From Diphasiastrum complanatum (Eukaryota > Streptophyta > Lycopodiopsida > Lycopodiales > Lycopodiaceae): DNA of 64,000 bases. The stretch lies in contig CM055094.1 of NCBI GenBank assembly GCA_029204225.1, forward strand, positions 5,262,063 through 5,326,062. Reading direction: 5' to 3'. Below, in pieces: positions 1 through 44,633 of the stretch. The position numbers were made by a program, and so were the translations under genes. Positions within the stretch are counted from its first letter, which is position 1, and the number at the start of each line of letters is the position of its first letter. A model generated the notes under the pieces. That model had not been told where the DNA came from. It did not search any database and was given only the letters and a program-made list of their open reading frames with translations.

Positions 1-292
1 CGCGTCGAACTGATATAAAAAAAAATAGTTTTTGAATATTGGATCAGCACGCACGTTATAAAAAAAAACCAAACAATAATTACAAGGGTGTGTCGGACCG
101 ATATTGATAAATTTTTATCTCTGCATCAACAATTTTAGCTTCGTATATGCTTTTGCATTTGGTATTGGAAAGAGTTCCAATATTTTCTACATATGGCTCC
201 TGGCAATTTTTTTTGTGTGTGTGTGTGTTAGAGTTCATCTTTAAACAAACTGGATTGCACACACCCTCATCATTGACGTATAAGGACAACAC

Positions 293-408
293 CTATAAGC
301 CCCAATGATCACTGCAATCAGAAAACAATAAATTAATGAGAATTAATGTGAAATCAAAATTCATATGAAAAATTCAACATAATAAAATCTGAAAAAAAGA
401 CACTTACT
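293..408 (-). other. Possible 3' intron and alternative end of the H3 variant
   Basis: The stop codon of the H3-variant ORF overlaps a perfect donor hexamer GTAAGT (402-407 on the minus strand). A T-rich stretch and an acceptor TGATTGCAG follow, with the AG at 312-313. Splicing 407-312 would replace the last Lys with six residues (N-D-H-W-G-L) and stop at 293-295. Either the unspliced end or this spliced end could be used. This is inferred from splice-site consensus only. Confidence 0.4.
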
Positions 409-1195
409 TTGTTATGTATGGCAGCACGAGAATTGGAGTCCCTAGTGTAACATATTGGGCAGGTGGAGGGAAACTAATATTTATGGGGGTAGGAGGAGAA
501 AATTTATTAGGAGAGGAAGATTTAGCAGGAGAAGTTAAAGATTGAGTTCTGAGAGGAGGAGAAAGAGACTTAGGAGGAGAATGCCTAGAAGAAAGAATCT
601 CATCCAAAGGAGATGGCTTGGAAAAATCCCTTACTTTATTTGGAGGGTCAAGAGACCTCCTCTTCTTTGAAACACTCCCGCTTTGTAGACGAATAACAAG
701 CCGAGATGGTTGAGATTGCTTTCGTTTTCTCCTCTCTAAATCTTGTTTTGGAGGAGAGGAGGGAGTAGGTCTAAAGTATTCTACAAATTTGTCATATGTG
801 TCCTGGAGCCTGAACACAATGTTGAGATCCTTGGGCATGATGGTCACCCTCTTGGCATGGACAGCTGCAACAACAATATCAAAAAAAAATTTCACCTGGA
901 AATCCTCATATGCAGTGTGCAACGTCTCAATTGCCGTTACCGTCCATCTCACATCTGCAGATAGACTTCTTGTAACCTGCCGGATGGATCTCTGTATGTG
1001 AGCTTTCGGAATCAAAAGATTATTTGTCTTGTGTAGCTTTCGAATATCCTTGAGCCAGGGTGGGTCTCTTCTTCTGCCCCTTGGCCTAGGAGGAGGTGGT
1101 GGTGGGCGAGGTGGTGGTTGTGGACTTCCCTGCCCCACTCCTGATATTGGTATTCCGCCAGGGTGGCCTCGTGCAGTTTGCTTGGTCCGCACCAT
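404..1195 (-). CDS. Divergent histone H3 variant with Pro-rich tail and long Ser/Pro C-terminal extension
   Basis: A 263-residue ORF starts at ATG 1195; an in-frame stop 48 bp upstream (TGA) supports this start. Residues 2-9 read V-RTKQTAR, the canonical H3 N-terminus with A1 changed to V. Residues 10-47 form a Gly/Pro/Arg tail (poly-Pro about 27-38) ending in RGRRRDPPW. Residues 48-131 are an H3 histone fold: LKDIRK, then LLIP (60-63), RW (83-84) and HAKRVTIMPKD (113-123), which is identical to H3. The spacing LLI to RW (20 residues) and RW to HAKRV equals that of H3, so loop 1 has no CENH3-type insertion, although 'NLLIP' and 'RWT' recall plant CENH3. Residues from about 136 to 263 are an extra basic Ser/Pro-rich tail with KRK and KKRR clusters and about seven SP sites, several with a nearby Lys. 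Canonical H3 ends near 136. Likely a nucleosomal or nucleosome-like DNA-binding protein in the nucleus; whether it is centromeric, sperm-specific or other cannot be told. Confidence 0.8.
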   Translation of the reverse strand: MVRTKQTARGHPGGIPISGVGQGSPQPPPRPPPPPPRPRGRRRDPPWLKDIRKLHKTNNLLIPKAHIQRSIRQVTRSLSADVRWTVTAIETLHTAYEDFQVKFFFDIVVAAVHAKRVTIMPKDLNIVFRLQDTYDKFVEYFRPTPSSPPKQDLERRKRKQSQPSRLVIRLQSGSVSKKRRSLDPPNKVRDFSKPSPLDEILSSRHSPPKSLSPPLRTQSLTSPAKSSSPNKFSPPTPINISFPPPAQYVTLGTPILVLPYITK

Positions 1196-1754
1196 TAATG
1201 ACCAATATCGGATCAGCGAGCAAAGAAGGTGAACCCAGGATCAAAAGTCAGGTCGAGCATGTTGAACCGATACCTGAGCTCTACAAAACCGATAGTTGGT
1301 AGCAAATGTGTGGCGCGAGAAATTGCGATTCATAAGAAGTTTGTCTCGAGCATGCTGTATCGCTATCGCATGGATGTAGAGAACTGTAAGGACTTTAAGC
1401 AAAAAAATTTCAGCGTCGTCTATCAATATATATAGACAAAATTTGAAATGATTGAAAACGTCGTGGGTTGGATGTCTGAGGTTCGAATTACGATGATGAT
1501 TTCTCCGAGGCTTGTCAATCAAATCAAACTAAATATCCATCTATTATCAAAATGATTAGTCGATATCTAATAAAACAGAATCAATTTCAACTAATGTATG
1601 GTCACATCTACAATCAAAGCTACAAAAGTATGGTCACATCTACAATTTATTGCTGAAATTGACAATGTTAAGCTATAAATATCTGACCTTTTTTTATATC
1701 CAATCATTATAATTTCATAAAATTCCAGCCGCAATTATTTCAATCAATAGCAAA

Positions 1755-2330
1755 TCGACACACATATACTGCATGTGAAAACCAGAGATTCTATTCCCGC
1801 GCGTTGAACCGATATTGGAAACTAATATGAATGATCAAAGCTTGATTCGATATATTCTCCTTAGCTTTGAACAGAATGAAGAGTCTACCGAATCAAGCTT
1901 TGATAATGCAAAATACACTCCAATAATTTTGAAAATTTTCGGAAAACTTGTTTTCCACCAATAGCATTTTAACGCATGCTTTTCAAGTGAAACATCATTG
2001 TTTTCTCCAAAGGCGCGCTCATCCAATATCCAGTACTTCACCCAATAGCTAATCCACGTGCATATACAGCATTTGAAAGCCAGTGGTGCTATTCTCGCGC
2101 GCTGAACGGAAAGCTTGACTCGATAAATTCTGCGTAATCTTGGACAGTATGAAGATTTTGCCAAATCAAGCTTTGAGTAGCATAATGGGGTCCAATTGTT
2201 TTCAAAATTCAAAAAACAATTGATTCCCGCAACAACGATTCGACGTGCGCAGTCCATATGGAGAATAACCATCTTCCGCCAGGCGCGCTGATCCGATATC
2301 TGATATGCAGAAGAATTATATTGGAGCACC
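1755..2330 (-). repeat. Two diverged tandem units of about 270 bp, partly open as a non-ATG ORF
   Basis: Blocks beginning at about 1762 and 2060 (catatac-gcat-tgaaa) and at 1839 and 2111 (agcttga-tcgat) recur in the same order about 270-300 bp apart, so the segment is an old direct duplication. Each unit carries copies of the short GCGCG-TGA-CCGATAT motif. On the minus strand 1835-2329 stays open for 164 codons from a GTG, and its two halves align as two repeats of about 65 residues, each ending in LRRIYR-KL. The next region to the right-hand side of the H3 gene (1241-1522, minus) ends in a related SVQ-AR string. I see no known domain. Open frame may be chance, or a trace of an old coding repeat. 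Confidence 0.4.
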
Positions 2331-2985
2331 TTATGAACAACTAATTAAAATATTCTGAATGAACATTATCTCAAAAGAAAAAATCTCGTCTTTACTCAGC
2401 TTAAATAGGGCGAGAGATTGTAATAATTCTCCTCGTACAGTTTTTTCAATGATATCCATTTATCATTTGTTTATTATTTGTTTAATAATTATTCGAGGAG
2501 GCTACTGATTGAATATTTAATGTATTCCGGCGCAGGTACTGATTCTAGGGTCAGGGCTAATGATGATTCGTTGAAACTAGTGATAGACTAGTTAATGTAT
2601 TTCGGCGTAGGTACAAATTTGTCTCACTCTGATTGGTGGATAAATATAGGCTGTGTTTCTCAATTCATTACTTGACAAATGTATAGCTGTGATCAACAGG
2701 AATTGGCTATAAATATGGGCACCACTTGCATATTTCGATTCCGTGATCTTTTATTCTGAACTCACTAGTCTTTTTGTTTTCTTTCTATCTCACGATATCG
2801 AATCAACGTGCGCCTTCCCAAATATTGCATGGTTTGATTTATTCAGGCACGCTGAATTGATATCACTCACTTCTAACGTGTTCTCGCGAAAAATTTTAAT
2901 CTCGCTTTAGCGATATTGGATCAACGCGCGCACTCTTGTTCATTCCTCTACCGATATCATTCTGTCGCGTTGAACTGATATCAAG
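2331..2985. other. Intergenic, AT-rich, with motif copies
   Basis: No gene is recognised. Phrases such as 'ttaatgtatt-cggcg-aggtac' occur twice (about 2517 and 2594), indicating a short diverged direct repeat. Four copies of the dispersed GATAT motif lie between 2793 and 2982, immediately before a small ATG-led frame at 2992. Confidence 0.35.
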
Positions 2986-2991
2986 TTCAAT

Positions 2992-3535
2992 ATGGCTAGT
3001 TCCTCCATGTCCTCAGATAACAAACTTTTGGATGTTTTTAATGCCAGTGACATTTCATCTAAGAAATTCGAGTATTTTGCTAGTAATTTCTTTTGCTCCC
3101 TTCGATATTGATAAGCTAGTTTATGAGAATTGTTATAATTTGATTTCTTATCTTGATATTTTTTTTTTCAGATTATTAGTACTCCTGTTCCGGAAATAGA
3201 CAATTTTTGTTTCGCTCATTTTCAAGACCTTGTGCATTCCCAACCATCCTCTAAGCATAAACACAATAGAAAGTACTCTAACCTGCATAAACATTTCAAA
3301 AGAAATATATATTGTAATATCCACAAAAGAATATGTCGCCTTCTTATCAAAGGAATGTCATTTGTCTTTTACATATATGCTGAAATTCCAGATGATGAGT
3401 CTGTCGAATCTTCAACTGTTCCATTGATCGAAGCATCTGCACCTGCTCCAGTTGATGTAGATGATGCAGATACTGATATAGGGGTCAAAGCTGAAGCATC
3501 TATGGCTTCAGATTATCAAAAAACTCTCCCTCGTT
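2992..3535 (+). pseudogene. Unrecognised broken coding stretch
   Basis: An ATG at 2992 opens about 40 codons (Ser-rich start MASSSMSSDNK). A neighbouring frame then carries a Tyr/Asp-rich stretch (FDIDKLVYENCYNLISYLDI). After a TTTTTTTTTTCAG tract at 3160-3171 a third open stretch runs to about 3535 with an acidic, Ala/Pro-rich part (about 3385-3510). The T-rich AG could be a splice acceptor, but I found no convincing phase-matched donor, so frameshifts are equally likely. No family is recognised. The 3' part overlaps a minus-strand copia integrase fragment, so the frame beyond 3535 is a shadow. Confidence 0.3.
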
Positions 3536-3735
3536 CTATAAGCCTCTCTGATTCTTTCTCAGCTTATCTGGTATGTGCATATACACTACGCATCCAAATG
3601 TTCGAACATGTTCAAGGTTTGGCTTCGACTTCCACCACATCTCATGAGGAGTTTTATTCGATATTTGAGATTTCTGGAAAATCAATAAATGCAGACAAGC
3701 CAATTGTTGATTTTGGCATTTCACCTCTTTGATTT
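3536..3735 (-). pseudogene. Copia integrase fragment
   Basis: Minus-strand translation gives the typical end of a Ty1/copia integrase core: NKTPHEMWW-KPNLEHVRTFGC-VYMHIPDKLRK. Only about 40 codons are recognisable. Upstream of NKTP the frame switches to unrelated sequence that belongs to the 'tail' repeat beginning at 3735, and downstream it hits a stop after KNQRGL. It is a truncated fossil; its antisense partner frame (+, 3232-3732) should not be called a gene here. Confidence 0.7.
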
Positions 3736-4690: not shown

Positions 4691-4846
4691 AAGAACATTT
4701 TTTATGAGCATAGGTGGATGGCCCAATGCTAGGGCTTAGAGACTTTTCACATGCTAACCCATTACCAATTTCTTAATGTCATGATCCCTTCCTTGCAAGA
4801 TTCACACAAATCCATTTTACATGTCACCATCCATGCATTTCATCCA

Positions 4847-5695
4847 TTCTTACTGATGACTTCCATATGTGGAAGTTCAAAATGAGGATGATCCTGTTGA
4901 AAAGGAGTTATGGGGATACGTTAACGGTTCTAAGGCCAGACCGGCAGGACCTGAACAGCTCCCAGCTTGGGAAGCCAAGGATGGCAAGGCTCTTGCCATT
5001 GTATCTCTAAACCTTAAAGACACTCAAATTACTCATGTGTCCAACTGCACTACTTCCAAAGAAGCATGTGATACACTCACCAGCATCTACGAGACCTCAG
5101 ATGTCTCGACTCGTCTCTTCTTGAGGAAGAAGGTACTGACACTCAGAATGAGTGAAAACATCTCGGTCAGCGACCATCTGAACGAGTTCAAACAACTGAT
5201 GAACCAACTGGCTGCAATAGGTTCCCCTATCTCAGAAGAAGACTCTACCATGTCTCTTCTTGCCAGTCTTCCATCCTCCTATGATAATTTAGTGTTGCTC
5301 CTCAGCAATACCCCTGTGCTGTCTTTCCAAAAACTGACATCAAGCTTGTTGCAGGAAGAAGTCAGGAGGAAAAGCTTGTTCACATCTACAGTTCCAAATC
5401 CATGGCACTCTATTCAAACAAGCAGCAATCCAAGAAGAAGAAAGGCTTCAAGGATAAGAAGACAAAGGCAGAACAGCCGGCGACATCACAACCACAACAA
5501 CAACAGTATAGTCACTCATCGTCAAGACCAAGCTATTTTGCAGATATTGCAAAAGAACCAACCACGACATCAAGAACTGTCGCATCCTCAAGCACAATGA
5601 AGCAAAGAAGAAGATGCAGCAACACCAAGAAGAGAACCCTGACACAGTCAAAGGATCTCAAGATGAAGAGAAGGCGCTAAATTAATAGGTCTATC
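4847..5695 (+). pseudogene. Copia gag (UBN2 type), broken
   Basis: The frame from about 4847 encodes a UBN2-type copia capsid region: WKFKMRMIL-like start, ELWGYVNGS, DGKALAIVSLNLKD, ETSDVSTRLFLRKK, SLLASLPSSYDNL. Compared with the copy at 39082 it lacks one base near 5388, so the frame shifts before the basic KKKKGFKDKK region (5402 onward). A CCHC knuckle (CX2CX4HX4C, CRYCKRTNHDIKNC) is readable near 5540-5582 in yet another frame, ending at a TAA at about 5682. The 5' end of gag (initiator Met) is missing. No protease, integrase or RT follows. Confidence 0.8.
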
Positions 5696-5915: not shown

Positions 5916-6118
5916 AAGGATGGTGACATGTGAAATGGATTTGTGTGAATCTTGCAAGGAAGGGATCATGACATTAAGAAACTGGTAATGGGTTAACATG
6001 TGAAAAGTCTCTTAGCCCTTGCATTGGTGGGCCATCCACCTATGTTCATAAAAAATCCATTCTTAGTGTCCAATAAAGGCCATAATCCATGCATTTCATC
6101 CATTCTTAGTGATGAACT

Positions 6119-6548
6119 ACTAATCGCATAGATCAACCTGATCATGTAACAACCAAATACTAATTGTTTTGAAACACGCTATTACCTGCTGAACAGGTGA
6201 GGGCGCCTGACCCGATGGGGGCAAGTGGGGGCCGCAATTGTACACTTGTTGACATCGTGAATAATCGTGATTTTGTAAAGAAAGCAATGAAAAAAAAACT
6301 CACGTAACTCTATTACATAAAGGAAAGCTACTGAGGTGATCATCTCCTACAACAAAATGAGAATGAGAATGAGAATTCTCGAAATGAAGGAGATTATTTG
6401 ATTGCATGCATGATTCATTCATTGTCAGAAGAAGCTAATTAATATTTTTCCTGATCATCCATATCAGACAGACCTGTGCGGGTGGTGGAGACGACACTTT
6501 GTTTAGAATTAAGATTCTGTGCTAGTAATAAGCTAGACTTACACAATT
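6119..6548 (+). promoter_or_regulatory. Upstream region of the VLIG gene
   Basis: About 430 bp of unique-looking sequence between the inverted-repeat element and the VLIG ATG. It contains an A-rich tract at 6291-6299 and no ORF. I could not pin a TATA box or transcription start; the promoter role is inferred from position only. Confidence 0.3.
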
Positions 6549-9500
6549 ATGGAGGACGAAGTGGTGATCGCAAGAGCCAGCTCTGGGCTAGCTCTGCGTG
6601 GAACTCATGTCGGTATTAGCGATCAGGATGGATGGCGAGCCTTGACGCAGGTGCTTCGCCGCCCTGAGGAGTGTAAGCTGACGGCACCAGACCAGGCTTA
6701 CAGGATGGAGACAATCTCTTTCTCCAGCATCGATGCCAGCAAGAGATTCTGCGAGGCAGTGGAGAAATCCGGGTGGAGTTTTGCTGTGAGTGTTTCAGCG
6801 CAGCTGGCCATGTTTGGTGGGAAGATTTCTGCAGGAATGCGAAGAGACAAAAAAAAGGAGGAAAAAATGTTTTCGGATCAACTGTCCCTGGATGCATGCC
6901 AGATGCATTACTGGTATATCCCGAAAGCCTCGTTCAGTATTCCCCGCCATCAGATGCGGTTGAGTGAGGAGGCATTAGACGATGTGCGTCGTGTGCAAAC
7001 GCTCATCGATGCGGAGAAATTTTTGTGTAACTATAATTCTCACGTCTCAACTGGCCGATATCACATCGGTGGAGTGCTGTTCAAGGGTGTGACAATCAAG
7101 GCAAATTCATCCACGAAATTGAAATCAATGTTGAATACGGCTGCCAAAAACTTCCACTGTGGAATTGAAGGCAGCTACATGGGATTCAAGGCTGGTCCCA
7201 AGGTAGCGATCTTGAATGAGGATTCTCCTTCTTCCACCGAGAGGACGTCCAGTCAGGAGGGGATGATGGGAACTGTTGTCGTCGCACTGGGACCTCAGAC
7301 ATCAGACGAAGAGAAATTCAAGGCTGGCTTGGAGCTGGACAAGTCTACTTGGTACATCATTGATAGTGGTGAGGGAGGTGTACTTGTGCCAATCTGGGAG
7401 ATCGCATTGTTTGAAAATTCCAAGGATCTCCTAATCCGAAAGTCATGCGATCTGCTCTGTGATGCTTGGCAGAGATGTGTTTCTCCTGAAGCTCACAAAA
7501 ATGATAGACTCTTTGAACTGCTTCAGAGCTCTTATACCACCAAACCTTTTATGGCATCATCTTCATTACTTCTTAGTGAGGATGAAGCAACCGCAAGCTT
7601 GAAAACTAAGCTAAATAAAATCAGTGGTTTCGGAGACTTGAGGACATCGCCTCAATCTCCTCGAGAGCTAGAAGATATCCTCGTAGCTGTATGGATTGCT
7701 GCATCGGAGATGAATGATTCAAAAACTTTCGGATGGGATGCAAGGCATCTCTTATTCAAACTTCCTGAATTTGACAATCTCTTGCTTACTATAGCGCAGT
7801 CGACAGAAAGTGATATGAACGCAGGAAAGCAATTAATAAGATTCCTAATAAGCAGAGACATGGAAATTTTGTTGGACAAAGAGGGGCTCTCCTTGAAGGA
7901 ACCAGTCAAGGCTTTATTGCGAAATCCGGTCCAACAAGATCTAGAGCTCACACAGCGGTTGACTCCTGGGCAGCATTATTCACCTGGGCGTAATCCGGTC
8001 CGAGAAAAGCTCACGCCTCTTACTAAAGCATTGAAGCTACAAGGTGCTTGCTGCTTACATCAATTCTCCTTCATACCTGGCTTGGGTTTTGCGATTGTGT
8101 GACGGGTCTTGCATGTATCTCCTCTCTCTAATATTTTAGCGTGCAATGCCAGTGGTAGACAGATGGTCGTATGCAGTTGGAATATAAAACTTTAACAGCT
8201 TGAACCGTACGTGTCGAGAGAATCTTGACTTTTTCTGTTGTGTGATTATATGTTCTTGTCAGATGTTTCGACCAGTTTTAATTTCACAGTACCTCCATAT
8301 ACCATGCCTCCCGAGGACGCTTACACATACAATGGCGACATGCTGGTTGATCGACCCATGGAAAGCTGTGAGGATGCACATAAGAGGATGATGGAGTGTA
8401 TAAGGCACCGAATGGAGCCATTTGCATCAGTCTTGAGCAAGCAAAGTTCTAACAGCGCCGATGATTTCGATTGCTTTTTTGGAGTTGATGGCAGCGTCAA
8501 CAGCAGCACGTCCGATAATGAAACCACAAATGATGTTAACCCTAATTTTTCCCCATTTATGATTTTGGTGCAGCTGTTATTGCGTTCAGATTTGTTGGCC
8601 CAGATTGCACTATTCCAGCTACTACTTGAACAGCGATTTGCTGTGCCTCTTGTTGTTCTACACAGCTTCTGCATCCATACGGAAACTGGAAAAATCAATG
8701 GTTTCGTCCATCTAGCTGAAGCTCTTGACTTTGTGCAAGTGAAATTAGCAAGCCAGGAGATTCTGTCGATAGCTGAGGACACCAAATTGCCCCGCGTGGT
8801 ATTTATCTCGAACAGAAAGGTCGCATCTCGTCGTGAGACTGCAGACATGGCAAATGAAGTAATGAATTGTCAACTTCCGAGTAGGCACTTAAAGGGTGAC
8901 ACTGGAGATGGCCCCACAGTGGTAGAGTTTGGAATCGGTTTTCTGAGGACACCAGATAATCAGCTACAAGAGCATACGCCATGCTTCGTATTTTGTGTGT
9001 GGGGCGATCACAACCGGCTGGGGGAGTTTTTGGGTGAGGCTGCAGACATGATCGTCGTAGAAACGGAGCCAGATAAGAAAGCAAGCTTTCTTCCGTGGAC
9101 TGAAGGTCATCCCAATGTCGACATACTCTACTGGAATATCAATTCAGAAAAGAAGGGTCTCAGCATTGACAAAGACTTCAAACGTATGTGGGGATCCTTT
9201 AAACAGTTGACTGAGGATATCCGGAAATACTTGGTGAGAGCCATTAATCTGGGGAGATTCAAAGGCCGGAATGGTCAAGCTGCAACTTTGAAAGAATGTC
9301 TGAGTGGAATTCCTCCATTGAACAAGGAAACCCCCATTTCCAATATTGCGAATCTTGATGACATAGAGAGGGCGAGGGATTCTCTTCGGTTGCAGAAAAC
9401 CTTTGCCGAGGAAGCACATCTTTACTTTGAGTCACTGCGGCAGAAACAAGATAAGGAGAAACTTGAGCACAAGATGAGGGGAATTCAAAGAGAACGTGCA

Positions 9501-12500
9501 AGTGCTGCTCATGAAGTGCAGAAATTGCCAATTCTTCGATTCTTTCTGCAACTGCTTTCGGAGAAGCATCACGTGAAACGGAAGATTGGCATCGTGCACT
9601 TCCAGCTGTCAATAGACAAGAAGCTGCAATCGACTCTTGAAAAGACTGCCAAAACTGTGGACGAGGCTTTCGATGCGTCTCGGAAGAAACCAGAAAGTTC
9701 TGAGTTGAAGCACAAGTACAGAGAAGCTAAAAAAGATCATATGAACCAGATGTTAGGTTTGGAGCACCTATGGAGAGAGTTGAGCCACATATTTGTCGCA
9801 GAACCAAGCAAGAGGGAGCTCCCGAGGCTGGCAGCGCACCACTTGCTGGATGGCTTCCCATTGGAAATCCTAGATGGAGATGCAGCCATGTTTCACAAAC
9901 TGTGGGTGGAGACAGTCTTGGTTGAGCTGGAAACAGTGCTGCTTGCTACGTTAAAACATAAGCCCAAGGTGTTCGTGCTGAGTATAGTAGGACTCCAAAG
10001 CAGCGGTAAATCCACTCTTCTCAACCTCATGTTTGGCACACAGCTCAAGACAAGTGCGGGCCAGTGCACCCGTGGGGTATATCTTCAGCTTGTGAAGTCA
10101 GAGTGGCGAGAATTTGACTACGTGCTGCTGCTAGATACGGAGGGGATAAGGGCCTCGGAATATTATGGCCTTCAGGATGCCGAGTCAAAAGACAACCGCC
10201 TGGCAACTTTTGCTATTCTTCCCGCAGATGCTTGTATTATAATGGTCGCCAACGAAGAAGACAACGGGCTCAAAGATGTACTCCCCATGGTGGTGTTAGC
10301 ATTCAAAGGATCTGCCATGGCTGATAAGTATGCTGGTCGGCTGCAGGCAAAGTTGTTTTTTGTTTATAGGAGTGTTGACACAAATGACGTGAAAAAGCTA
10401 AAGAAAAACCAGCAAAAGCTTCTAGAAGACTTGCAAGATGCTTCCTTGAAGATTGCAGGAACAGGTCAGCCAAGCTCACAAGCTTCTATCAGCCTACTCA
10501 ATATCCAGGTCGATGCGCAAGACGATCAGAGGAGCGATGTAAAATACCTTGGTAGTTTGAAGAAAGGTAATATACCACCGCTAGATATTCCTGATTGGGA
10601 TTACGGCAGAAAGGTGGTCGAGTTGCGGAAGTACATCCACAAACGTGTTTTGGATGGACGGCGTTGGGAGGGTCATAAGCTAGTGGACTGGATAGACTGT
10701 CTGAGAATGGTCTGGCAATGTATAGCCGATGCAAATTTCGAACTGAGGTTCTTGAATAGTATGGAACTTGAATACTATCACCAACTTCAAGACAAACTGG
10801 GGAGCTGCCGAGGAAATGTGGGAAAAAAATGTGTGAAAGAGATTGAACGACTAGAAGGAGAACTTCAAGTGGACAAAGGCACCGACCATTCCTCGAATAG
10901 CTTCTGGAACATTTTCAAAAGCAGGGTGGAAGAGACCGTGAGGGAGGAAGGAGAAGAAGTGAACAGGATTCTTGAGCAGAACAAATGGCAAAGATGGAAG
11001 GTCGAAGAAAGTGCACGCTGGACTGACTTCTGCTTGGACCAGGACAGACAATGGAAGGCCCGACTTGAAGATTGTACTGCTGGCGTCCTCAAGTTTGACA
11101 ATGTCGTGGAAGAGTATTGTAAAAAGATACAGAAGGAAATCCAATCAGACGCTGATCAGCTGTATGTGCTCAATAATCCTTCACCTGATCAGGAAGACAG
11201 AATGAAGTCACATTTTGAAGAACTTTTTGGGCGCATCTTGCAAGAAGTTGAAGAAAAACATCCGCCGTTGGCAAAAAAGGTATGTGGGTATGTTGACGAG
11301 TTATATGTGAACAGTCGAGTTGTTGGCGAGAAGTTCGAATTCAGGAGAAAATTTGGTTTGGAAACAATTAAAAATAAGTTAAAGCTAAACATTGTTAAGA
11401 AGACCATCTCGGAAGGGCCTGTTAAAGAACAGCTGGATTCAAAGATGGAGAGATTGCTAAAAGACGCTAATCAATATGCTCATCACCTAGTGGAAGAGAT
11501 GTTCAGATTCACAGACAAGTTAGTAGCAGGGGAATCGAAAGACTATCAAAAGTCTACACATACTTATGTTAAGGATGTGCTTACCGAGAGACTGACAACC
11601 ATTCAGCATAAATGGGATATGCAGCACAATGTGTCTCAAAGGTTGACGGCAGAAAAACCGCGACTTTGGCTGTTCTATAAAAATTGCGCAAACGGTGTGG
11701 GAAGAACGAAGATGTTATCCATGGAGGTCGGGCAAATTTTGCAGACCAAAATGGTGGATTCTTTTAAGGTTCATTTATCTAGAAGTGTTTCGGACAAACT
11801 ACAAGCTGAGGCGTGGGTACGCAACTGGAAGGTAATGAGGGCCCATCTTGACCTCCACCTGGTCGAGCTCATCGAGACCAAGCAGACGGATGATCTTCTT
11901 TACTGTGTGTCTTTTGGGAGCTCACATTACAGCAGGATTGTGGACAAACTGCTAGAGAAGGAAATTAACGATCAGTTGCGGAAAGATAATCCTCTCTGGA
12001 CCTGGTTTGTAAACTCAATCCAGGGAGCCGTGAAGCTTGCAGCTGTTTCAGCAGTGCGTTCGAAATCTTTATCAAAATCTTCAATATTCCTTGGCGAATT
12101 GAAAGAGCAGCTTCTCAAAAAAACGGAGTCCTCAGAACTTTCTAAAAGCATCTCCCTTGTGAACGAGGAAGTGTATTCGAAGCATGGCGATGGTATCGAT
12201 TTCATAAAATTCGGGGAGGACGTGAGTGAAAGAGTAGCCTGTGTCGAACTCAATCTGACGTCTAGATCTTCAATCAAAGAGTTGATAGAGCTCGTGAAAA
12301 CAAGGATGATTGCGTCGGCATCAGAGAGTGCTCGACCACGATGTGAAGAACAGTGTCCTCATTGTCGACTCACATGCCTTTTTCCCGCCAGGCACACTGG
12401 ACGCCATGATACATTGCACCAGCCCCAAGGACTGTGTGCAGCCCATAACACGAGTACCGGTGAGTTGCTTCCATATTCATGCTCCAAGTATGTCACTCTG

Positions 12501-12779
12501 GGATGGACCATGAGAGATCCAAGGCGAGGAATAATAAAATCCGTGCCTTTCAAGGATTATGAAAAATACTATCCATGGACCCTTCCTTCCGAAGGTTTTG
12601 GAACACCTAAAGTGAGAGAGTATATCTTTGCCCATTACCAGGAAGATCTCGCGCAAAGGCATTTACTCCTCAATCCAGGTGTTAGGATGTGCACCAACAT
12701 CCCTTCCGAGTATCGGCATGACCTGAAAGGCCTACGTTGTGAACTTGAGAATGTCATTCAAAGCCACACTTCTCTTTAA
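6549..12779 (+). CDS. Very large inducible GTPase (VLIG / GVIN1-like), two exons
   Basis: Exon 1 is 6549-8043 and exon 2 is 8263-12779. Joined at donor CAAG|GTGCTT and acceptor TTGTCAG|AT (phase 1) they encode about 2003 residues, near the 2400 usual for vertebrate VLIGs. Residues about 158-176 contain NSHVSTGRYHIGG, matching the 'GSHVN-GP-H-GG' motif I recall from VLIG N-termini. Residues 1075-1083 are the P-loop GLQSSGKST and 1123-1126 the G3 DTEG. The usual N/TKxD G4 is absent; FVYRSVD stands there, as in VLIGs, which use a variant G4. A long charged, helical region follows. A Cys/His cluster (about 1859-1905: CEEQCPHCRLTC, then H-rich, 'HQPQ') is the VLIG C-terminal signature. Predicted to be a cytosolic GTPase, possibly self-assembling like dynamin or GBP proteins. 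No lesion is seen, so it looks functional. Its role in plants is not known to me. Confidence 0.9.
8044..8262 (+). other. Intron of the VLIG gene
   Basis: A 219-bp GT-AG intron with donor AAG|GTGCTT and acceptor preceded by tgttcttgtcag. Both sides are phase 1 (CAA G / AT GTT). Without splicing the first frame would read on about 19 codons and stop at 8100-8102. Confidence 0.75.
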
Positions 12780-13670
12780 ACAGCTAGATGGCCTAATTGT
12801 TATCTAGTTATCTTCAAGAGATCCTTGACACTTCACAAGTCCTTAGTAGTGTTAGTTAACTTCTCAAGTGATTTACTTAACATTAGCTAGTAGCTAATCA
12901 ACTTTACGAGTGATTTACTTAAAGGTAGCTAATCACGCATCGTCCATTTCTTAGATGTGGTTATGATATGCACTTCTACTATAATCAATGTTAGAAAACC
13001 CATGGACAATAAAACCTTTCCTAAAAATTGCTTTCCTCAAAGCTCAGATTTTTACTATGTTGTGGAATTTCAGACCTTGCGTTTAAAAAAAAGTTCACAA
13101 AAAACATTTGTATTTCCAAACATACCTTCTAAACACCCACTACTATACTTAATTGGCATTACTTGATACCAATAAATGAAATGATTTTGAAGATTTCATA
13201 ACATGTTAAGCTCCTTCTTTGCGATATTCCTTCTTTGCTCGTTTGCTCAGTCCAGAATGTTGACAATGTAACTCATCACAATCAAGTATGCACAATCATG
13301 CAAACTATATATTCACATCATTATCTTACTAATATCATGAAAAGAGCTCACTTAGATCATGAGAATTTACGACTCTAACTATGTCAAACGACAAATATGA
13401 AACAAAAACTAATATATTTGTACTCAACCATGCTTACTAAAATTTTTAAATAAACCAATAGATTCTGAATATATCAATGAAGGGCAATTACAAATTATCT
13501 TAACCAGTAAGAATGACTCAGTACACATTGATAATCACTTCAAAATATTCTAGATGATAAAATGATAACCATTCGTGACATATGACAGTACTATTTGATA
13601 TCTAACTTAGCGCACTATTAATTAATCTTAAAAAAACCACGTATAGTAAACATTTTTTAAATCACAGGTC
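12780..13670. other. Intergenic, AT-rich, no gene seen
   Basis: Region 3' of the VLIG gene. Short imperfect direct repeats ('caagtgatttacttaa', 'gagtgatttacttaaa') occur at about 12855-12925. No ORF with recognisable content. Confidence 0.4.
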
Positions 13671-13675
13671 AATTG

Positions 13676-14010
13676 TTTGCCACTTGTGGCAAATCCAAAA
13701 AGAATTCGATAAATTTTGCCACGCGTGGCAAATCTCCAAATTACATGTCACATGAAAAAGTTGTTATTTAACCACTTTTCAAGGCTTTGCCACGCGTGGT
13801 TGTGCCACGCCAATTTAGAAAACCCAATATCTAAACAAAATTGGATTTTAAATATTTTTGCATGGCACAGCCACGCATGGCTGTGCCACGCCAAAAATTT
13901 GAAAGTGTTTTTCCTTCTCCCGCACCCAAAGTCAACTCATTTTTGACCGGCGGGGTTGCTTGAAAGTTTTTGGCGTAGATGTGCCAAGCGTGGATGAGCC
14001 ACGCTAAAAA
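13676..14010. repeat. Cluster of palindromes around GCCACGCGTGGC
   Basis: Near-perfect palindromes: TTTGCCACTTGTGGCAAA (13676-13693), TTTGCCACGCGTGGCAAA (13715-13732), a half-altered copy at 13786-13812, a 24-bp near-palindrome at 13864-13887 (ggcacagcca to tggctgtgcc), and diverged copies to about 14010. The same motif recurs at 62684-62775. They could form hairpins; likely ends or subrepeats of a small element family. Confidence 0.7.
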
Positions 14011-14176
14011 AATGGCAAAAGTTTGGGTAAGTCCCCCGTTCGCATTGCAGGTTTGTGTGGCAAAACACCTCCGTATGTAGTTGTGAATTGATATCTCTTC
14101 CTCTTCGTGTTTTTGTTTTCTTTTTTCTTTTTCCACACCTGAAAATAAAATACAACAATATTATACACTATATAAG

Positions 14177-15625
14177 TTAAGACATTCGCCCTTCTCGAAC
14201 ATAGCAGGGTTTGATTTTAACAATGTTGGTTCGGTGCGTAAATACCTCACCCTGTAAATTCACCAACTTCACGGTATTGTTCTCATAAAGTTTCTCCACA
14301 ATATAGGGCCCACTCCATCTAAAAGCCAAATTTTGGGGCATAACGTCATGACGAGGATCTCGGAATAACACTAGCTGATTAAGAACGGAGGAATATCCTT
14401 TTATCTTTCGATCATGGGACAATTTCATTCCTCTCTTAAATGTCTTTTGATGGACAAGAGAAGCTAGTCGTTGTTCATCTAACTCTTGCAATGTCTCAAT
14501 ACGTTGTTGCATAGACTCCTCCATCCCTAAATCATGTGTCATGGCGAATCTTAACGTAGGCAATTCTATTCTATGGCCAGCACACACTCTTGTCCACACT
14601 CTTGGCATATGGTTTGTGCTAGTCTTATAAGATGTGTTATAGGACCACAATGCTAAGTACAATTTCTTATCCCAATCTCTTTTAGTTTAAGACACAGTTT
14701 TCTTGATGATTGTTATCAATTGTTTGTTAGTAGTCTCAACTTATCCATTGGCTGAAGGATGAAAGGGAGTGCTCTTATGTGCTTGACACTCAATTGTTCT
14801 GTCAGATCATCTTGTTCAAGAAATGGGTTCCTCGATCTGACACTAACTCTTTAGGAACTCCAAATCTCCCTATAACCTGTTCTAAAAGAAACCATGTTGT
14901 TTCTTTAGTGTTGTCCTTGGTTACAGCCCTCGCCTCGGCCCATTTGGTAAAATAATCTGTAGCTACTATGATGTAGCTCTTACGTGAGGAGGAAGCTAGG
15001 CGGATAGGTCCCACAAAGTCTATTCCACACTTCTCAAATGGTAGACAAGCCTGTAGAGGAATTAGAGACCGCGCTCTATCTTCTTGGGGGTTTGTCCTTT
15101 GACAAATATCATGTTCAATGCTTGTAATTTGAGTTTTCGTCTCTCTTGTGAGGTATAGGTAGAGGGTATTTATAACGTAGTATCGAGCTAAGTCTCTATA
15201 CCATCTAGGAATAAGTTTTGTATCTATTTTGAAAATTTCTTTCATCTGTTCATCCTCTATGCACTCCTCTTTTAGGTTTTCTAACTTGCAAATGCAGTCA
15301 TTCAAACCTTGAAGCCTGGGTGGTTTACTCTTCAAAGTATAATCATATTCTTCAAGAGAGTTTATCCACTTGGATAATCTATTTGGAGATTCTAGTTTAT
15401 TCATCATCATGGTCACTGCCTCATTCATGGTGAAGAAAGTTACTTTTTGATGTGGAACATAGTGTCGATACTTCGCAGCTGCATACGCTATGCAGAGACA
15501 CACTTTCTCAGCTTTCGTGTAATTCAACTTAGAATCGTTGAGCTTCCTCCCAGCAAATATTATTGGATGATATTTTTTATCCCAAATTTGGGCTAAAGAA
15601 CAATTTATAGATGTAAATGTCTTCT
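14177..15625 (-). pseudogene. Ty3/gypsy pol remnant (RNase H and integrase)
   Basis: Reading right to left: an RNase H end (FAGRKLN, then LNYTKAEKVCLCIAYA, about 15570-15400), a Ty3-type linker, an integrase core (CGIDFVGPI, TDYFTKWAEARAV, ELVSDRGTHF, to about 14802), then after stops the integrase C-terminal part (14177-14662) with RWSGPYIV. RT, gag and LTRs are missing, and the core is broken at about 14662-14802 by stops and frameshifts. The C-terminal style without a chromodomain fits the Tat/Athila side of plant gypsy elements. Confidence 0.8.
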
Positions 15626-21282: not shown

Positions 21283-23370
21283 CTAGCTTGGTTCAATCAT
21301 TGCTTTACTAATCACTCCAAGTGATGATCTGAACTTCATAAAAGGTGTCTTTTGAAGTGGTTTAGTAAGTAGATCAGCTACACATTCATTGCTTGGAACA
21401 TGCTCCAAAGCAATCTCCTTGGCTTGCACCATTTCTCTCACAAAGTGATGGCATATCTCAATGTGCTTAGATCTTGCATGGAAGATTGGGTTAGATGCAA
21501 GGTGTTGGGCTGATATATTGTCATTGTAGATGATTGGTGCCTCCTCTGAATCCATGATCTTTAGTTCCACCAATAATCTCTTGATCCAAAGTACCTCCTT
21601 TGTAGTGGTTGTCAAAGCTTTGTACTCGGCCTCGGTTGAAGATAGAGATATAGTTTCTTGCTTTTTTGAAAGCCATGAAACCACACCTTCTCCTATGAAA
21701 GTTGAATAGGAACTTGTTGATTTCCTATCCCTCTTGTCCCCTGCAAAATCTGAATCACTAAATGCATGAAGGTTAATCACATCTCCTCTATATAGAATCC
21801 CAAAATCCAATGTACCCGAGATGTATCTTAGAATCCTCTTAGCCTTTTTCCAATGGATATTCAATGGCTTTTGCATGGATTGGCTCAACCTACATACACT
21901 AAAGCTAAGATCTGGTCTAGTTATAGTGATCCACATTAAGGAACCTATAAGTTGCCTAAACAAAGTGATGTCCATGAAGGATCTTTCATCATCTTCATTT
22001 GGCACTTTTACATCTTGCTCCATTGGTGTGTCAACACTTTTGCATACTTCCATCTTAAACTTCTTCAAAAGACTTTGAGCATAGTTTACTTGACTTATAA
22101 AGATAAAATCAGACCCTCTAAGTACTTCTATGCCTAAGATGAAGTGAAGACACCCTAGATCTACCATCTTGAACTCTAAGGATAGATCTATCTTGATTTT
22201 TTCAATACCATCAACACTATTTCCACTAATGATGATGTCATCTACATAAATGAGTAAAAGTACAATACCAACATCATCAAACTTAATGTAAAGAGTGGGA
22301 TCATATTCACTTTGAACAAAAGAAAGTGAAATAAGATAGCAATGTAGTCTTGAATTCCAAGATCTCGAGGCTTGCTTCAAGCCATAGATGCTTCTTTGGA
22401 GATGGCATACTTTGTTCTCCATTCCATGCTTGATTAACCCTTGTGGCTGCTCCATATAGATATCCTCTTCCAAAAAACCATTCAAGAAAGCATTAGAGAC
22501 ATCCATTTGACATAGAATCCATCCAAAATGTGATGCAAGTGCAATGATTATCCTTATTGTGACCATCTTGGCCACGAGTGCAAAAGTTTCCTCATAGTCT
22601 ATCCCTCTCTCTTGAGCATAACCTTTTGCAACTAATCTTGCTTTATGTTTGTTAACACTCCCATTTGCATTCAACTTAAGCTTGAAGACCCACTTGCATC
22701 CTATTACATTCCTTTGAGGTCTCTCAACAAGCAACCAAGTTTCATTCTCAATCAAGGCATCATACTCATCCAACATAGCTTTATACCATTCTTTGGAGTT
22801 CAATGCATCTTCAACATTAGATGGTTCTTCAAAAATAGATAAAGCATAAGAAGTGGATGAGATACCCTCAACTTGCTGTCCTTTGCCTTGATATGTGAGC
22901 CTTGATGGCTCCACTTTTGCCCTTGAAGATCTCCTTGGTGTGATAGGTGGGTTTGGTGCTTGCTCCTCCATGAGCTCCTCCTCAAAACCAAGATCTTGCT
23001 CCTCGGCCATCTTCTTCTTGATTGTTGGAGCACTTGAGCCTTCTTCAAGCATATGCATATGATGTTCATCAAAGATGACATCCCTTGAAACAACAAATTT
23101 GTTCAAGGATGGGAGATAGACTTTGTAGCCCTTGCTTGAGCTTGCACATCCAAGCATGATCCCTCTTGTGGAAGATGGATCCTCCTTGGTTCTTGTTTCC
23201 AATGGCACATGCACATAACATATACACCCAAAAACTTTCAAGTGATTAAGATTGGGTTTCTTTCCATACAACATCTCATAAGGAGTTTTGCCTTCAATTG
23301 CTTTGCAAGACACCCTATTCATCAAGTAGTTTGCACATACAAGAGACTCACACCAAAAGGATTTGGGCAA
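21283..23370 (-). CDS. Copia E pol, downstream part: integrase end, RT, RNase H
   Basis: 695 codons. In order: integrase C-terminal segment (NRVSCKAIEGKTPYEMLYGK, residues about 14-33), a variable linker, the copia RVT_2 reverse transcriptase (WVFKLKLN, ARLVAKGYAQERGIDYEETF, active site YVDD near residue 375, TPMEQD), then RNase H (DSDFAGDKRDRKSTSSY, SSTEAEYKAL, HVPSNECVADLLTKPL). The stop lies just inside the 3' LTR boundary. The frame is continuous with the upstream ORF except for the TAA at 23380, so the listed start is only the first Met after that stop. Confidence 0.9.
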   Translation of the reverse strand: MPKSFWCESLVCANYLMNRVSCKAIEGKTPYEMLYGKKPNLNHLKVFGCICYVHVPLETRTKEDPSSTRGIMLGCASSSKGYKVYLPSLNKFVVSRDVIFDEHHMHMLEEGSSAPTIKKKMAEEQDLGFEEELMEEQAPNPPITPRRSSRAKVEPSRLTYQGKGQQVEGISSTSYALSIFEEPSNVEDALNSKEWYKAMLDEYDALIENETWLLVERPQRNVIGCKWVFKLKLNANGSVNKHKARLVAKGYAQERGIDYEETFALVAKMVTIRIIIALASHFGWILCQMDVSNAFLNGFLEEDIYMEQPQGLIKHGMENKVCHLQRSIYGLKQASRSWNSRLHCYLISLSFVQSEYDPTLYIKFDDVGIVLLLIYVDDIIISGNSVDGIEKIKIDLSLEFKMVDLGCLHFILGIEVLRGSDFIFISQVNYAQSLLKKFKMEVCKSVDTPMEQDVKVPNEDDERSFMDITLFRQLIGSLMWITITRPDLSFSVCRLSQSMQKPLNIHWKKAKRILRYISGTLDFGILYRGDVINLHAFSDSDFAGDKRDRKSTSSYSTFIGEGVVSWLSKKQETISLSSTEAEYKALTTTTKEVLWIKRLLVELKIMDSEEAPIIYNDNISAQHLASNPIFHARSKHIEICHHFVREMVQAKEIALEHVPSNECVADLLTKPLQKTPFMKFRSSLGVISKAMIEPS

Positions 23371-23379
23371 ACAAGCATC

Positions 23380-25257
23380 TTAGAACATTCTTAAAGCCTT
23401 AGAACATTCACATAATGTTCTATTCCTTCTTTCAGCAACTCCATTTTGTTGAGGAGTGTAAGGACAAGAAGTCTCTTTCTTGATCCCTTCCTCCTCACAA
23501 AAGGCCTTGAACTTATTGGAGATGAATTCTCCACCATTGTCACTTCTAAGAATCTTGATGCTATGATTATGATGCTTTTCCACAAACAACTTGAACTTTA
23601 CAAAAGTATCAAATACTTGAGACTTGAAGGAAAGTAAGAACACCCAACAATATCTTGAGTAGTCATCAATGAAGGTTAAAAACATGGATGAACCTCCATT
23701 AGATTTGGTGCTAGCAATGTGCACATCCGAGTGTATGAGTTCAAGAGGATGAGATGACTTTGTGATGGAGTTAGGAAACACCTTCTTATGTGCCTTGGAT
23801 AAGGCACAAGCTTCACAAACTTTGTCTTCCTTCCCAATAGACCTTGGTAGGCCTAAAGCATACTCCTCCTTGATCATAGCCTCCATGGAACCCGAGTTGA
23901 CATGTCCAAGTCTTTTGTGCCATAAAGTAAAGGTAGATATCTTGTTCTTCTCGGCCAACATGACAACATTAGTATCCAAAAATGCATCCAACTTATAAAG
24001 TTTGCCAAGTCTAGTGCCCTTAGCCACTATCTTACCCTTCTTCTTGATGAAACATTCATTTGAAGCAAAGTCAACATTGAAACCATTGTCTACCATTTGG
24101 CCAACACTTAGTAGATTCTCTGTTATTGTAGGAATGTACAAAACACCTTCTATGTTGATCTTTTTGGAAGATCCTAAGCAAAGGGGAATGCTACCAACTC
24201 CTTCAATCTTACAAGCTTCATAATTTGCTGTATAGATAGACTTTATAGGTCCATCATAAGATAAGAGAGAAGAGAAAAACTCCCTTTTACTAGTCATGTG
24301 TGAACTAGCACCCGAGTCAATCCACCAAGGATCTTCCCCTTTGAAGCTTGTTGAAGAAAATATGGACATCATGAGAGAGTCCTCATGTGAACTCTCCTCC
24401 TCCTCCTCTTTGCTCATGTTGGCTTGGATTTGATCTTGCTTCCTCTTGAAGCATTCCGAGGCATAATGCCCCATCTTGCTACAATAGTAGCACTTCACCT
24501 TTGATTTGTCCTTCTTGACTTTGGTGGTTGATGGAGATGCCTTTGAGGGTCCTTCTTGATCCTCAAGATTTGTAGACTTCTTGAATGTTGATACTTTGCC
24601 TTTGGACTTGCCTTTGCCTTTGGTGAAGAGAGCTTGGTCATCTCCACCTTGGATGGAAAGCCTATCCATCCTCTCTTGCATTTGGCTCCTTCTTGATTCC
24701 TCGGCCATGAGTGTGCCTTGGAGTTCTTCAAGTATAGGTAGCTTACCCATAATTGCATATCCCTGAACCAAATTGTCAAACTCAAAGCTTAGTCCATTCA
24801 ATATGAGTTGAACAAGCTCTTCATCCTTGATAGGGTCACCTATAAAGGCTAGCTCTTTGTTCAATTCCTTTACTCTTAGGACAAAAGTATGTGCACTCTC
24901 TCCTTTCTTTTGATAGCTTCTATAGATTTGATTCTTCAAAGCTAACATTCTAGTTTGGTTCTTGGATTCATAGACCTTTTGCAAAGTCTGCCAAGCATCT
25001 TGAGCTGAAGTGCAATCTCCTACCTCTCTTAAGAGTTCATTTGCAACATTCATTTTTATGCAATGTAGTGCAACATTGCACCTCTTGATGTATTTGGCTT
25101 TTTCTTGAGGATGAATAGGTTCACCCTCCTTACCATTTACAATTTCCATCAGATCTTGCATGATCATGATAGATTCCATTCTAACTTTCCATATGGAATA
25201 GTTAGTTTTGTTGAGCCTTTCATTAGTATCCAAAAGATATGCATTTATAGATGCCAT
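23380..25257 (-). CDS. Copia E gag, protease and integrase core
   Basis: 625 codons from ATG 25257. UBN2 gag (NYSIWKVRMESIM, residues 19-31), CCHC knuckle CYYCSKMGHYASEC (about 255-268), protease motif DSGASSHMTS (about 315), GAG-pre-integrase LWHKRLGHVN (about 447), integrase acidic residues in HSDVH, IDDYSR and SDNGGEF, and NGVAERRNRTL near the end. It stops at a single in-frame TAA after KALRMF; the same frame continues into the RT ORF 3 codons later. That nonsense change is the only coding lesion I see. Confidence 0.9.
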   Translation of the reverse strand: MASINAYLLDTNERLNKTNYSIWKVRMESIMIMQDLMEIVNGKEGEPIHPQEKAKYIKRCNVALHCIKMNVANELLREVGDCTSAQDAWQTLQKVYESKNQTRMLALKNQIYRSYQKKGESAHTFVLRVKELNKELAFIGDPIKDEELVQLILNGLSFEFDNLVQGYAIMGKLPILEELQGTLMAEESRRSQMQERMDRLSIQGGDDQALFTKGKGKSKGKVSTFKKSTNLEDQEGPSKASPSTTKVKKDKSKVKCYYCSKMGHYASECFKRKQDQIQANMSKEEEEESSHEDSLMMSIFSSTSFKGEDPWWIDSGASSHMTSKREFFSSLLSYDGPIKSIYTANYEACKIEGVGSIPLCLGSSKKINIEGVLYIPTITENLLSVGQMVDNGFNVDFASNECFIKKKGKIVAKGTRLGKLYKLDAFLDTNVVMLAEKNKISTFTLWHKRLGHVNSGSMEAMIKEEYALGLPRSIGKEDKVCEACALSKAHKKVFPNSITKSSHPLELIHSDVHIASTKSNGGSSMFLTFIDDYSRYCWVFLLSFKSQVFDTFVKFKLFVEKHHNHSIKILRSDNGGEFISNKFKAFCEEEGIKKETSCPYTPQQNGVAERRNRTLCECSKALRMF

Positions 25258-43325: not shown

Positions 43326-44619
43326 TCATTCAACTTGACTATAGGGGTTGATGATGATTTTCATCACACATGTACATTTACAAGTTGTAAATATCTTTTT
43401 TATTCTTGTTGGCCATCGTCGTTCTACATCACTTAATTTCTTTGAAAAATATGCAACTGGTTTTCCCTCTTGCATCAACACGGCCCCAATAGCAAAGTTT
43501 GACGCATCTGTATGTATTTCGAACGGTTTGCTAAAGTCCAGTAGGAAAAGAATGGGTTCTTGAGTGATCCGTCGCTTTAGTTCTTGGAACGCTGCTTCAC
43601 ATTTCGGTGTCCATGTCATTTTGAGATAAGTCTTTGTCTGCTCCAACAACGGTGCCACAATTTTGCTAAATGCCTCAATGAATCTCCTGTAAAAATTACA
43701 TAGCCCCACAAAGGATTTGTGCGTCCGTGGCCTATAACATGTCCAAGGAAATCAACTTCCTCCAGCACAAACTCACATTTCTCTCTTTTCACGAACAAGC
43801 AGTTCCTCCTCAGTCGTTGGAGAACTGTCCTTAAATGTTTAATGTGATCTTTAAGGCTCCGGCTAAATACTAATATGTCATCGATGTACACAATGACAAA
43901 TTCATCCAGACAGTCTTGAAAAATATTGTTCATCAATGTGCAAAAAGTGGCTGGTGCGTTTGTTAGACCGAATGACATCACTAGGAACTCGTGACTCCCG
44001 TACTGTGTTCGAAACGCCGTTTTGTGCTCATCACCTTTAGCTATTCGAATTTGATGATATCCAGATCTGAGATCTATTCGGCTAAAGTATTTGGCATGTT
44101 TGAGCTGGTCGAACAAGCCATCAATTCTAGGCATGGGGTACTTGTTCTTGATGGTACTCTTGTTAAGCATGCGATAATCCACACACATTCGAAGAGTTTT
44201 GTCCGCCTTTTCCACGAACAACACTGGGGCTCCAAAAGGTGAAGCGCTAGGTCTAATAAAACCTTTGTCTATCAATTCACCAAGTTGTCGTTTCAGTTCC
44301 GCCAACTCCTCTTGTGACATTCTGTAGGGTGCTCGTGAAGTTGGCTCCGTTCCTGGTACCAACTCAATTTTATGGTCCACTGGTCTTTGAGGAGGTAGCT
44401 TAGCTAGGAGTTCCTCCGGAAACACATCGCTAAATTCTTCTAGCAGATCTGCCACTTCTTTTGGCAAGTTTTCTTGTCGCACGCTTTTCCCTTCTGGGAC
44501 TTCTCGGCAAATGCAAAGAAAGCACTTTGACCTTTTTCCTTCCGCCATTCTTTTCATCGCTAATGCTGCAATCAGATTTTGTTCAATATCGGTATCCTTA
44601 GCATTTCCTCCGGGCAGGG
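43326..44619 (-). pseudogene. Chromovirus B RT and truncated RNase H
   Basis: RT from 44619: [49 protein letters not shown], active site YIDD at about 43878, [19 protein letters not shown] frame change near 43720 precedes the connection and RNase H start (43326-43709; IHTDASNFAIGAVLMQ, ERRWPT), which breaks off. A start at the top of the frame is not real: upstream sequence has been replaced. Confidence 0.9.
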
Positions 44620-44633
44620 CCCAAAGAAGAATG

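Follow-up and report, generated by a model that had tools for sequence, protein, structure and literature searches.

Transposons that carry histone H3 sequences have been described in fungi. According to the sections of PMC6710886 that deal with them, the Pseudocercospora clade has a hAT element of about 9.5 kb that picked up an H3 transcript and multiplied to hundreds of copies, which were inactivated by RIP, with 784 H3-like copies in P. fijiensis, while a hAT element of Pyrenophora tritici-repentis carries potentially functional H3 copies; the captured H3 in these fungi is mostly regarded there as passive cargo. A histone-bearing transposon is thus not new in itself. In Arabidopsis, the VANC proteins are described as binding short motifs that accumulate, upstream and within introns, in the transposon that encodes them (PMC5735166), with motif binding treated likewise in PMC10398659, and the passages on KIU genes in PMC13317346 present these as VANC genes with an Ulp1 domain. 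The word 'histone' is absent from the main text of the last of these, a review of plant gene capture, and earlier work on capture of the centromeric H3, CENH3, may be missed here.

The window analysed in this work, the whole stretch of 64,000 nucleotides of Diphasiastrum complanatum DNA, contains near its left edge an open reading frame for an H3-like histone. This frame belongs to a DNA transposon of ~10.5 kb with CATTAGG...CCTAATG inverted ends, and below we describe the element, its histone gene and the transposase linked to it.

Results

The histone frame is the first exon of a dead gene copy

The frame lies at 404..1195 on the minus strand, with its ATG at 1195, and encodes 263 amino acids. 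It matches the Pfam Histone family (E 9.6e-19), its residues 1-131 match H3 chains in the PDB (E about 1e-17), and weak matches to CENP-T_C and CENP-S lie below the Pfam cut-offs. A preliminary description of this DNA had reported a canonical H3 start and HAKRVTIMPKD block together with CENH3-like NLLIP and RWT motifs, and a loop 1 of H3 length that lacks the CENH3 insertion. All of these features, with the start reading MVRTKQTAR, are present in the frame; the length of loop 1 was borne out by alignment with the genome's own H3, and the fold groups with CENH3 in the tree described below. LLIPKA, RWT, EDF and KD...RL are common to this frame and CENH3, the window copy having KDL where most element copies have KDF. 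The claim that the protein aligns with H3 free of gaps holds within the fold, as judged against the genome's own H3, but not in the tail, where the PDB H3 chains require a one-residue gap. Helix 2 is indeed altered, although two of its changes, S105F (5 of 20 other copies) and T107I (4 of 20), are only minority variants in the family. An AlphaFold2 model of the window histone is of low confidence (pLDDT 61) and places helices at the positions of H3 aN, a1, a2 and a3. The features of the element copy within the window are as follows.

408..1195, minus strand: exon 1 of the transposon histone gene (from the open frame, Pfam, PDB and copy alignment), laid out as an H3-like tail (residues 1-14), a Pro-rich stretch, the histone fold (residues 46-133) and a basic Pro/Ser linker; in this copy ~140 residues of the C-terminal part are lost in frame before QYVTLGTPILVLPYIT
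312..407, minus strand: intron 1, GTAAGT...CAG; among 12 aligned copies, read by eye, the donor GT is kept in 12 and the acceptor AG in 10
119..311, minus strand: exon 2 remnant, starting NDHWGL, with a premature TAG after DHWGL, a (CA)n stretch and the donor GT changed to AT in the window copy
1..118, minus strand: a portion of intron 2 that carries a single inverted pair of motifs (36-, 88+); the window ends before exons 3 and 4
1196..2991: divergent promoter region that separates the histone gene from gene X and in which the 17-bp motif GCGCGYTGAWCCGATAT occurs 10 times
1205-, 1257+, 1799+, 2013+, 2097+, 2283+, 2795-, 2847+, 2913-, 2965+: these promoter motifs, each given by first base and strand
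2992..3555, plus strand: 5' fragment of gene X, MASSSM..., in derived coordinates; homology with other copies stops near 3555
1..3555: part of the transposon copy within the window; the remainder is left of the window (locus L029) and rearranged

The stop codon of the frame overlaps the splice donor AA/GTAAGT (donor at 407), so that the frame runs out into an intron and the protein does not end there. The frame of the preliminary description is exon 1 of a decayed copy with an internal deletion. Given the in-frame deletion in the C-terminal part and the stop in exon 2, the window copy of the histone gene is dead, and it is truncated and rearranged as well. The right arm of this element copy, which falls outside the window on its left side, is inverted and matches A18 13252-14294 in reverse. 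No transposase match was found within the window.

The gene belongs to a dispersed family of DNA transposons

A search of the same genome (1,744,706,496 bases in 5,176 contigs) with the window protein gave at least 145 scored matches from 9,381 first-look candidates. The window copy aside, these show 75-87% amino-acid identity, mostly over residues 1-246, and they are found on all of the contigs C1 to C24 as well as on numerous small, unplaced ones; as the unplaced contigs contribute some duplicates, the number of independent insertions cannot be read off from the 145. Twenty further copies were taken with about 9.9 kb each, which makes 21 with that of the window. Homology among the 21 reaches up to about 4.5 kb on either side of the gene start, the upstream bound being the limit of the compared stretch and the downstream one the point where homology itself ends; two copies examined over longer stretches have about 9.4-9.9 kb in common. 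The right end, ...CCTAATG or a near variant, is in place at the same point in nine of the 21 copies, and a tenth, at the L025 locus, is present as an inverted fragment separated from the rest. The left end, CATTAGG or CATCAGG, was found in four of the seven copies with left flank. Together the ends form imperfect inverted repeats of about 32-35 bp, and the copy on contig 18 has a length of about 10.45 kb. No target-site duplication was seen in either of the two copies with both ends, a sample of two only. Decay is visible in the element copies examined.

The mixture of H3, CENH3-like and new parts claimed in the preliminary description is thus real and fits no H3 class known to us, but it is borne by the first exon of a transposon gene, for which the genome gave 145 scored matches. 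The reading as a host H3 variant was rejected in view of the multi-copy matches, the limits of homology and the common element ends. In a Pfam scan of eight element frames, Histone was the only family above cut-off, with no transposase, PHD or kelch domain; an NCBIfam scan covered the window frame and three transposase homologs.

A four-exon gene with signs of past selection

In other copies, exon 1 encodes 402 residues in an open frame that ends inside the GTAAGT donor. Three introns are seen in 12 aligned copies, with GT or AG kept in 9 to 12 of the 12 at each junction (by eye), and the later exons have the sequences NDHWSLYVLSLYVNDEG..., SSQQVDSVSCGWYTVCNAKHFF... and ...LEIIDS-stop. In-frame stops aside, a single frame runs across the four exons to the common stop in L020 (545 codons) and in L021, which puts the gene at about 550 codons. 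Exon 2 contains a coding (CA)n microsatellite of very variable length, which shifts the frame between copies (L009-L028).

Neutral drift (dN/dS near 1) had been named in the preliminary description as a pattern that would refute its reading; the variants shared among copies point to purifying selection in the family. Over the 21 copies, mean dN/dS is 0.43 in the tail, 0.46 in the fold, 0.87 in the linker and 0.40 in the C-terminal domain. When variants were split by the number of copies sharing them and nonsynonymous and synonymous changes (N/S) were taken relative to opportunity, those in at least four copies gave 0.18 in the tail (4 N, 9 S), 0.31 in the fold (11, 11), 0.74 in the linker (26, 12) and 0.23 in the C-terminal domain (12, 16), all from small counts. 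Variants in two or three copies are not uniformly low (tail 1.53, fold 0.76, linker 1.41, C-terminal domain 0.56), the singletons give 0.96, 0.63, 0.88 and 0.72 in the same order, and one stop codon in the fold is common to four copies. The low N/S of widely shared variants and the higher one of singletons suggest a working gene in the active lineage, followed by decay after insertion. On balance, these small counts argue for purifying selection on the tail, the fold and the C-terminal domain, and for little on the linker. Among the other frames of the element, shared variants gave N/S of 0.22 for the C part of the transposase (6 N, 8 S), 0.52 for its N part (8, 4), 0.51 for X1, 0.56 for X2 and 0.53 for Y; stretch Y2, at 1.34, would thus be non-coding or unconstrained there. 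It is very probable that the element carries a CENH3-derived histone gene that was formerly under selection.

The histone fold is related to CENH3

All 21 copies retain the T3 and K4 residues of the H3 tail, and in all 21 K9 is replaced by G and S10 by H. R2 is kept in 9 of 17 copies and R8 in 15 of 21, and the element histone has no recognisable K27 region. The K9/S10 tail and near-invariant core that mark canonical and replacement H3 are both lacking. In eight copies the fold shows 41-45% identity to three CENH3s, whereas its identity to the H3 of the same genome is 36-41%. In a tree of these 8 of the 21 copies, built from a small sequence set and with the element copies on a long branch, the fold groups with CENH3 with a support of 96 for the whole group and 81 inside it; leaving out two of the three CENH3s, the support is 99. 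Since the fold groups with CENH3 but its loop 1 is without the CENH3 insertion, the element histone is here called CENH3-derived, and not CENH3, as a class suggested by these alignments.

A possible protease domain at the C terminus

The C-terminal domain contains DHW followed by Q-x5-CG and in this resembles Ulp1/SENP proteases. A five-copy profile found SENP8 as its only PDB match (E 0.15), aligned at the DHW/Q-x5-CG site with His, Gln and Cys in register and with the Asp of the triad apparently Asn; the spacing from Q to C is the same as that of SENP8 in this alignment. Peptidase C48 of Pfam gave no match at E<=10, hhalign against a yeast Ulp1 sequence was not significant (P 0.16), and a search of 5.8 billion database proteins returned no match for the domain. 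These similarities hint at a possible Ulp1-like protease behind the basic Pro/Ser linker.

A 17-bp motif occurs in pairs in the promoter and in intron 2

With up to 3 mismatches allowed, the contig-18 element contains 13 instances of GCGCGYTGAWCCGATAT, where 30 shuffles gave 0.03, and the 9.4 kb of sequence flanking that element contains none. The motif sites fall in the stretch that separates the histone gene from the start of gene X, and also in intron 2; in the window, 12 of 13 sites are inside the element. When up to 4 mismatches were allowed, the 21 copies together gave 278 motifs, with 115 neighbouring -/+ pairs among them: 88 are spaced at 52 bp, 12 at 51, 6 at 50 and 2 at 53. Although the 21 copies are related, the six separate motif pairs within one element have much the same spacing. 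The outer span of a pair is 69 bp, and ~69 bp is about the length of DNA held by an H3-H4 tetramer.

A transposase family linked to H3-like genes

The transposase lies upstream of the histone gene on the same strand. Its family is predicted to be RAG1/Transib-like in fold, an assignment that rests on a model (mean pLDDT 71) of the homolog P0008, which is 41% identical to the element transposase, and not on the element's own spliced protein; the structural comparison listed RAG1, RAG-like, Transib, P element, Hermes and ISCth4, and CACTA, KDZ and similar transposases may be closer. Among 16 transposase homologs, D182 is present in 15 of 15 (one gap), D282 and E381 in all 16, C302 in 16, C305 in 15, and H342 and H347 in 16, and we take these to be the equivalents of the DDE triad and the C2H2 zinc residues of RAG1. 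By sequence, no RAG1 or Transib chain was found in the PDB at E<=10, and a Pfam scan of 10 transposase homologs gave no transposase family and nothing above cut-off. A viral origin was considered and rejected: when viral contigs were scanned with an alignment of the transposase, eight pattern matches and no confirmed relative came up. Three relatives of the transposase (C17:15122336, C8:2455176 and C1:20726978) have 603-aa open frames, with no stop in the best-matching stretch and, in two of the three, one TAA within a slightly wider match. The transposase family may hold young copies.

When 129 transposase loci were set against the 145 histone matches, the two were no more than 8 kb apart in 10 cases, as against 0.17 expected; in every case the histone shares the strand of the transposase and lies 1.8-3.4 kb downstream of it. 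Three of these 10 pairs probably represent duplicated loci on unplaced contigs, and the pair at L022 involves one of the 21 copies described above. A search of the genome with a CENH3 query gave 150 scored matches, namely 13 at the top, of which the seven listed are all canonical H3, and 137 other H3-like frames. The first 59 of these 137 do not overlap with the 145 matches and form four pairs with the 129 loci (0.07 expected), again all on one strand with the histone downstream. The total is 14 transposase-H3 pairs (0.24 expected) in a single order and strand, four of them from the second H3-like group. The full 137 set against 81 transposase loci gave four same-strand pairs within 5 kb (0.06 expected), one of which is in both sets; two further pairs, 18-23 kb apart and in the opposite direction, were taken as chance. 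More CENH3-like histone frames, known from listed positions alone, thus also adjoin transposases of this family, and the element family apparently has more than one lineage that carries such a histone.

The 137 frames of the second set are dispersed and closer to CENH3 (for example C11:29718891, C8:46820843 and C13:31266219). Many have long open frames, with a length around 340 aa recurring, and seven lie 1.8-2.9 kb downstream of a same-family transposase on the same strand, some of these being perhaps duplicates.

Other features of the window

A 1,516-aa frame at 8229-12779 (plus strand) encodes a giant GTPase of the URGCP/VLIG type (Pfam URGCP_GTPase, E 2.1e-55), and the 521-aa frame just upstream of it (6537-8102) has no Pfam match. 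A Copia-type retroelement occupies 21283-25257 (minus strand) as two long adjacent frames, with RVT_2 (E 1.8e-70) in 21283-23379. Reverse transcriptase fragments (RVT_1) at 43616-44689 (minus strand) and 53381-54463 (plus strand) are presumably of the Gypsy type. Two regions, 4697-4832 and 5918-6056, contain inverted repeats of ~110 and 29 nt that are 95-97% complementary and ~1.1 kb apart, and the frame between them (4860-5600) is, we assume, gag-like.

Discussion

We incline, with some reserve, to the view that the element family took up a CENH3 gene, probably from its plant host, and kept it as a working accessory gene, probably as an anti-silencing chromatin factor. The anti-silencing mechanism itself is offered tentatively, as a suggestion with somewhat less than an even chance of being right. 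It would work as follows. The histone protein or its partners would bind the paired 17-bp motifs in the promoter and the intron of the element, and the H3 placed there, if loaded into nucleosomes, would keep T3 and K4 but be without K9, S10 and a recognisable K27 region. Lacking K9, such a histone could not, we propose, receive silencing marks of the H3K9 type, and the candidate Ulp1-like domain might remove SUMO or cut a silencing protein. In its most specific form this amounts to a transposon that builds private nucleosomes, with its CENH3-derived histone loaded at the paired promoter sites, keeping K4 and unmethylable at H3K9, and with the fused domain stripping SUMO from silencing factors. 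In this full form the proposal is decidedly improbable; if true, it would be a case of self-made chromatin immunity.

Several other readings of the same data have to be weighed. As with the histone folds of CENP-T or NF-Y, the fold might serve for sequence-specific DNA binding or for dimerisation, acting on the element's own promoter or in transposition and having given up its role as a histone of the nucleosome. In favour of this are the inverted motif pairs, with their constant distance of 52 bp, in the divergent promoter and in intron 2, as well as the altered helix 2, the long basic linker and the weak CENP-T_C and CENP-S matches below cut-off; however, plain DNA binding does not need the HAKRVTIMPKD block and the H3 tail, which are kept, and we consider this reading rather unlikely, though worth bearing in mind. 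It is also unlikely that the histone is a targeting factor, directing integration or retention in centromeric or H3K4-marked chromatin, maybe as bait for the transposase complex. The kinship of the fold with CENH3 and the presence of T3 and K4 in 21 of 21 copies would suit that role, as would the RAG1-like fold of the transposase, RAG2, the partner of RAG1, being described in the relevant part of PMC8355894 as reading H3K4me3 through a PHD finger. Yet the matches are dispersed over contigs C1-C24 (by contig position), and Pfam finds no PHD or kelch domain in the eight element frames scanned.

Two readings remain, passive capture and a host gene family. Plant transposons commonly capture genes, as the review PMC13317346 describes in its account of capture, and the H3 sequences of the Pseudocercospora clade, amplified to hundreds of copies and all inactivated according to the sections of PMC6710886 on that clade, provide a precedent for host coding sequence carried as functionless cargo; the decay in the copies examined also speaks for this reading. 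Passive capture is nevertheless very unlikely here, as the shared variants point to purifying selection on tail, fold and C-terminal domain with little on the linker, the gene has several exons and a conserved frame, and the same order and strand recur with other H3-like frames. Amplification of a host multigene family of H3 variants by other means could account for dispersed H3-like frames with long open reading, but the copies have nothing in common beyond the aligned stretch, and the common ends and the transposase linkage speak against such a family for the copies with ends, leaving it extremely improbable.

What appears to be new is a CENH3-type histone under purifying selection within a larger gene, next to a transposase of RAG1-like predicted fold and an ordered motif array. 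Should the histone work in chromatin, it would make testable both the evasion of histone-based silencing by a genomic parasite and the question of which parts of CENH3 give centromere identity.

The element can be compared with several known systems. In the case of the RAG1, ProtoRAG and Transib transposases, no RAG1 or Transib chain of the PDB matches the transposase family by sequence, and no target-site duplication was seen in two copies. The element ends start with CATTAGG, which we take to be unlike the RAG heptamer. With plant CENH3, the element histone shares the fold (41-45% identity) and the LLIPKA, RWT, EDF and KDF...RL motifs, and it differs in the H3-length loop 1, the long C-terminal extension, the ARTKQTAR start and in being multi-copy and transposon-borne. 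The fungal H3-carrying hAT elements of Pseudocercospora, Cercospora, Sphaerulina and Pyrenophora, as far as PMC6710886 describes them in the sections concerned, are likewise multi-copy DNA transposons with inverted ends and an H3 sequence; they have a hAT transposase and an intronless canonical H3, whereas the present element has a CENH3-type fold in a four-exon gene with a long extension, a RAG1-fold transposase family, signs of purifying selection and a motif array. The VANDAL elements of Arabidopsis resemble it, on the accounts of VANC and KIU in PMC5735166 and PMC13317346, in a short motif repeated in upstream and intronic non-coding parts, and, in the latter account, in an accessory gene with an Ulp1 domain, which here is only a possible one. 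Yet VANDALs have a Mutator-like transposase, no terminal inverted repeats and motif arrays in the same orientation, while the element described here has inverted ends, a transposase family of RAG1-like predicted fold, inverted motif pairs 52 bp apart and an accessory protein set apart from VANC and KIU by its histone fold.
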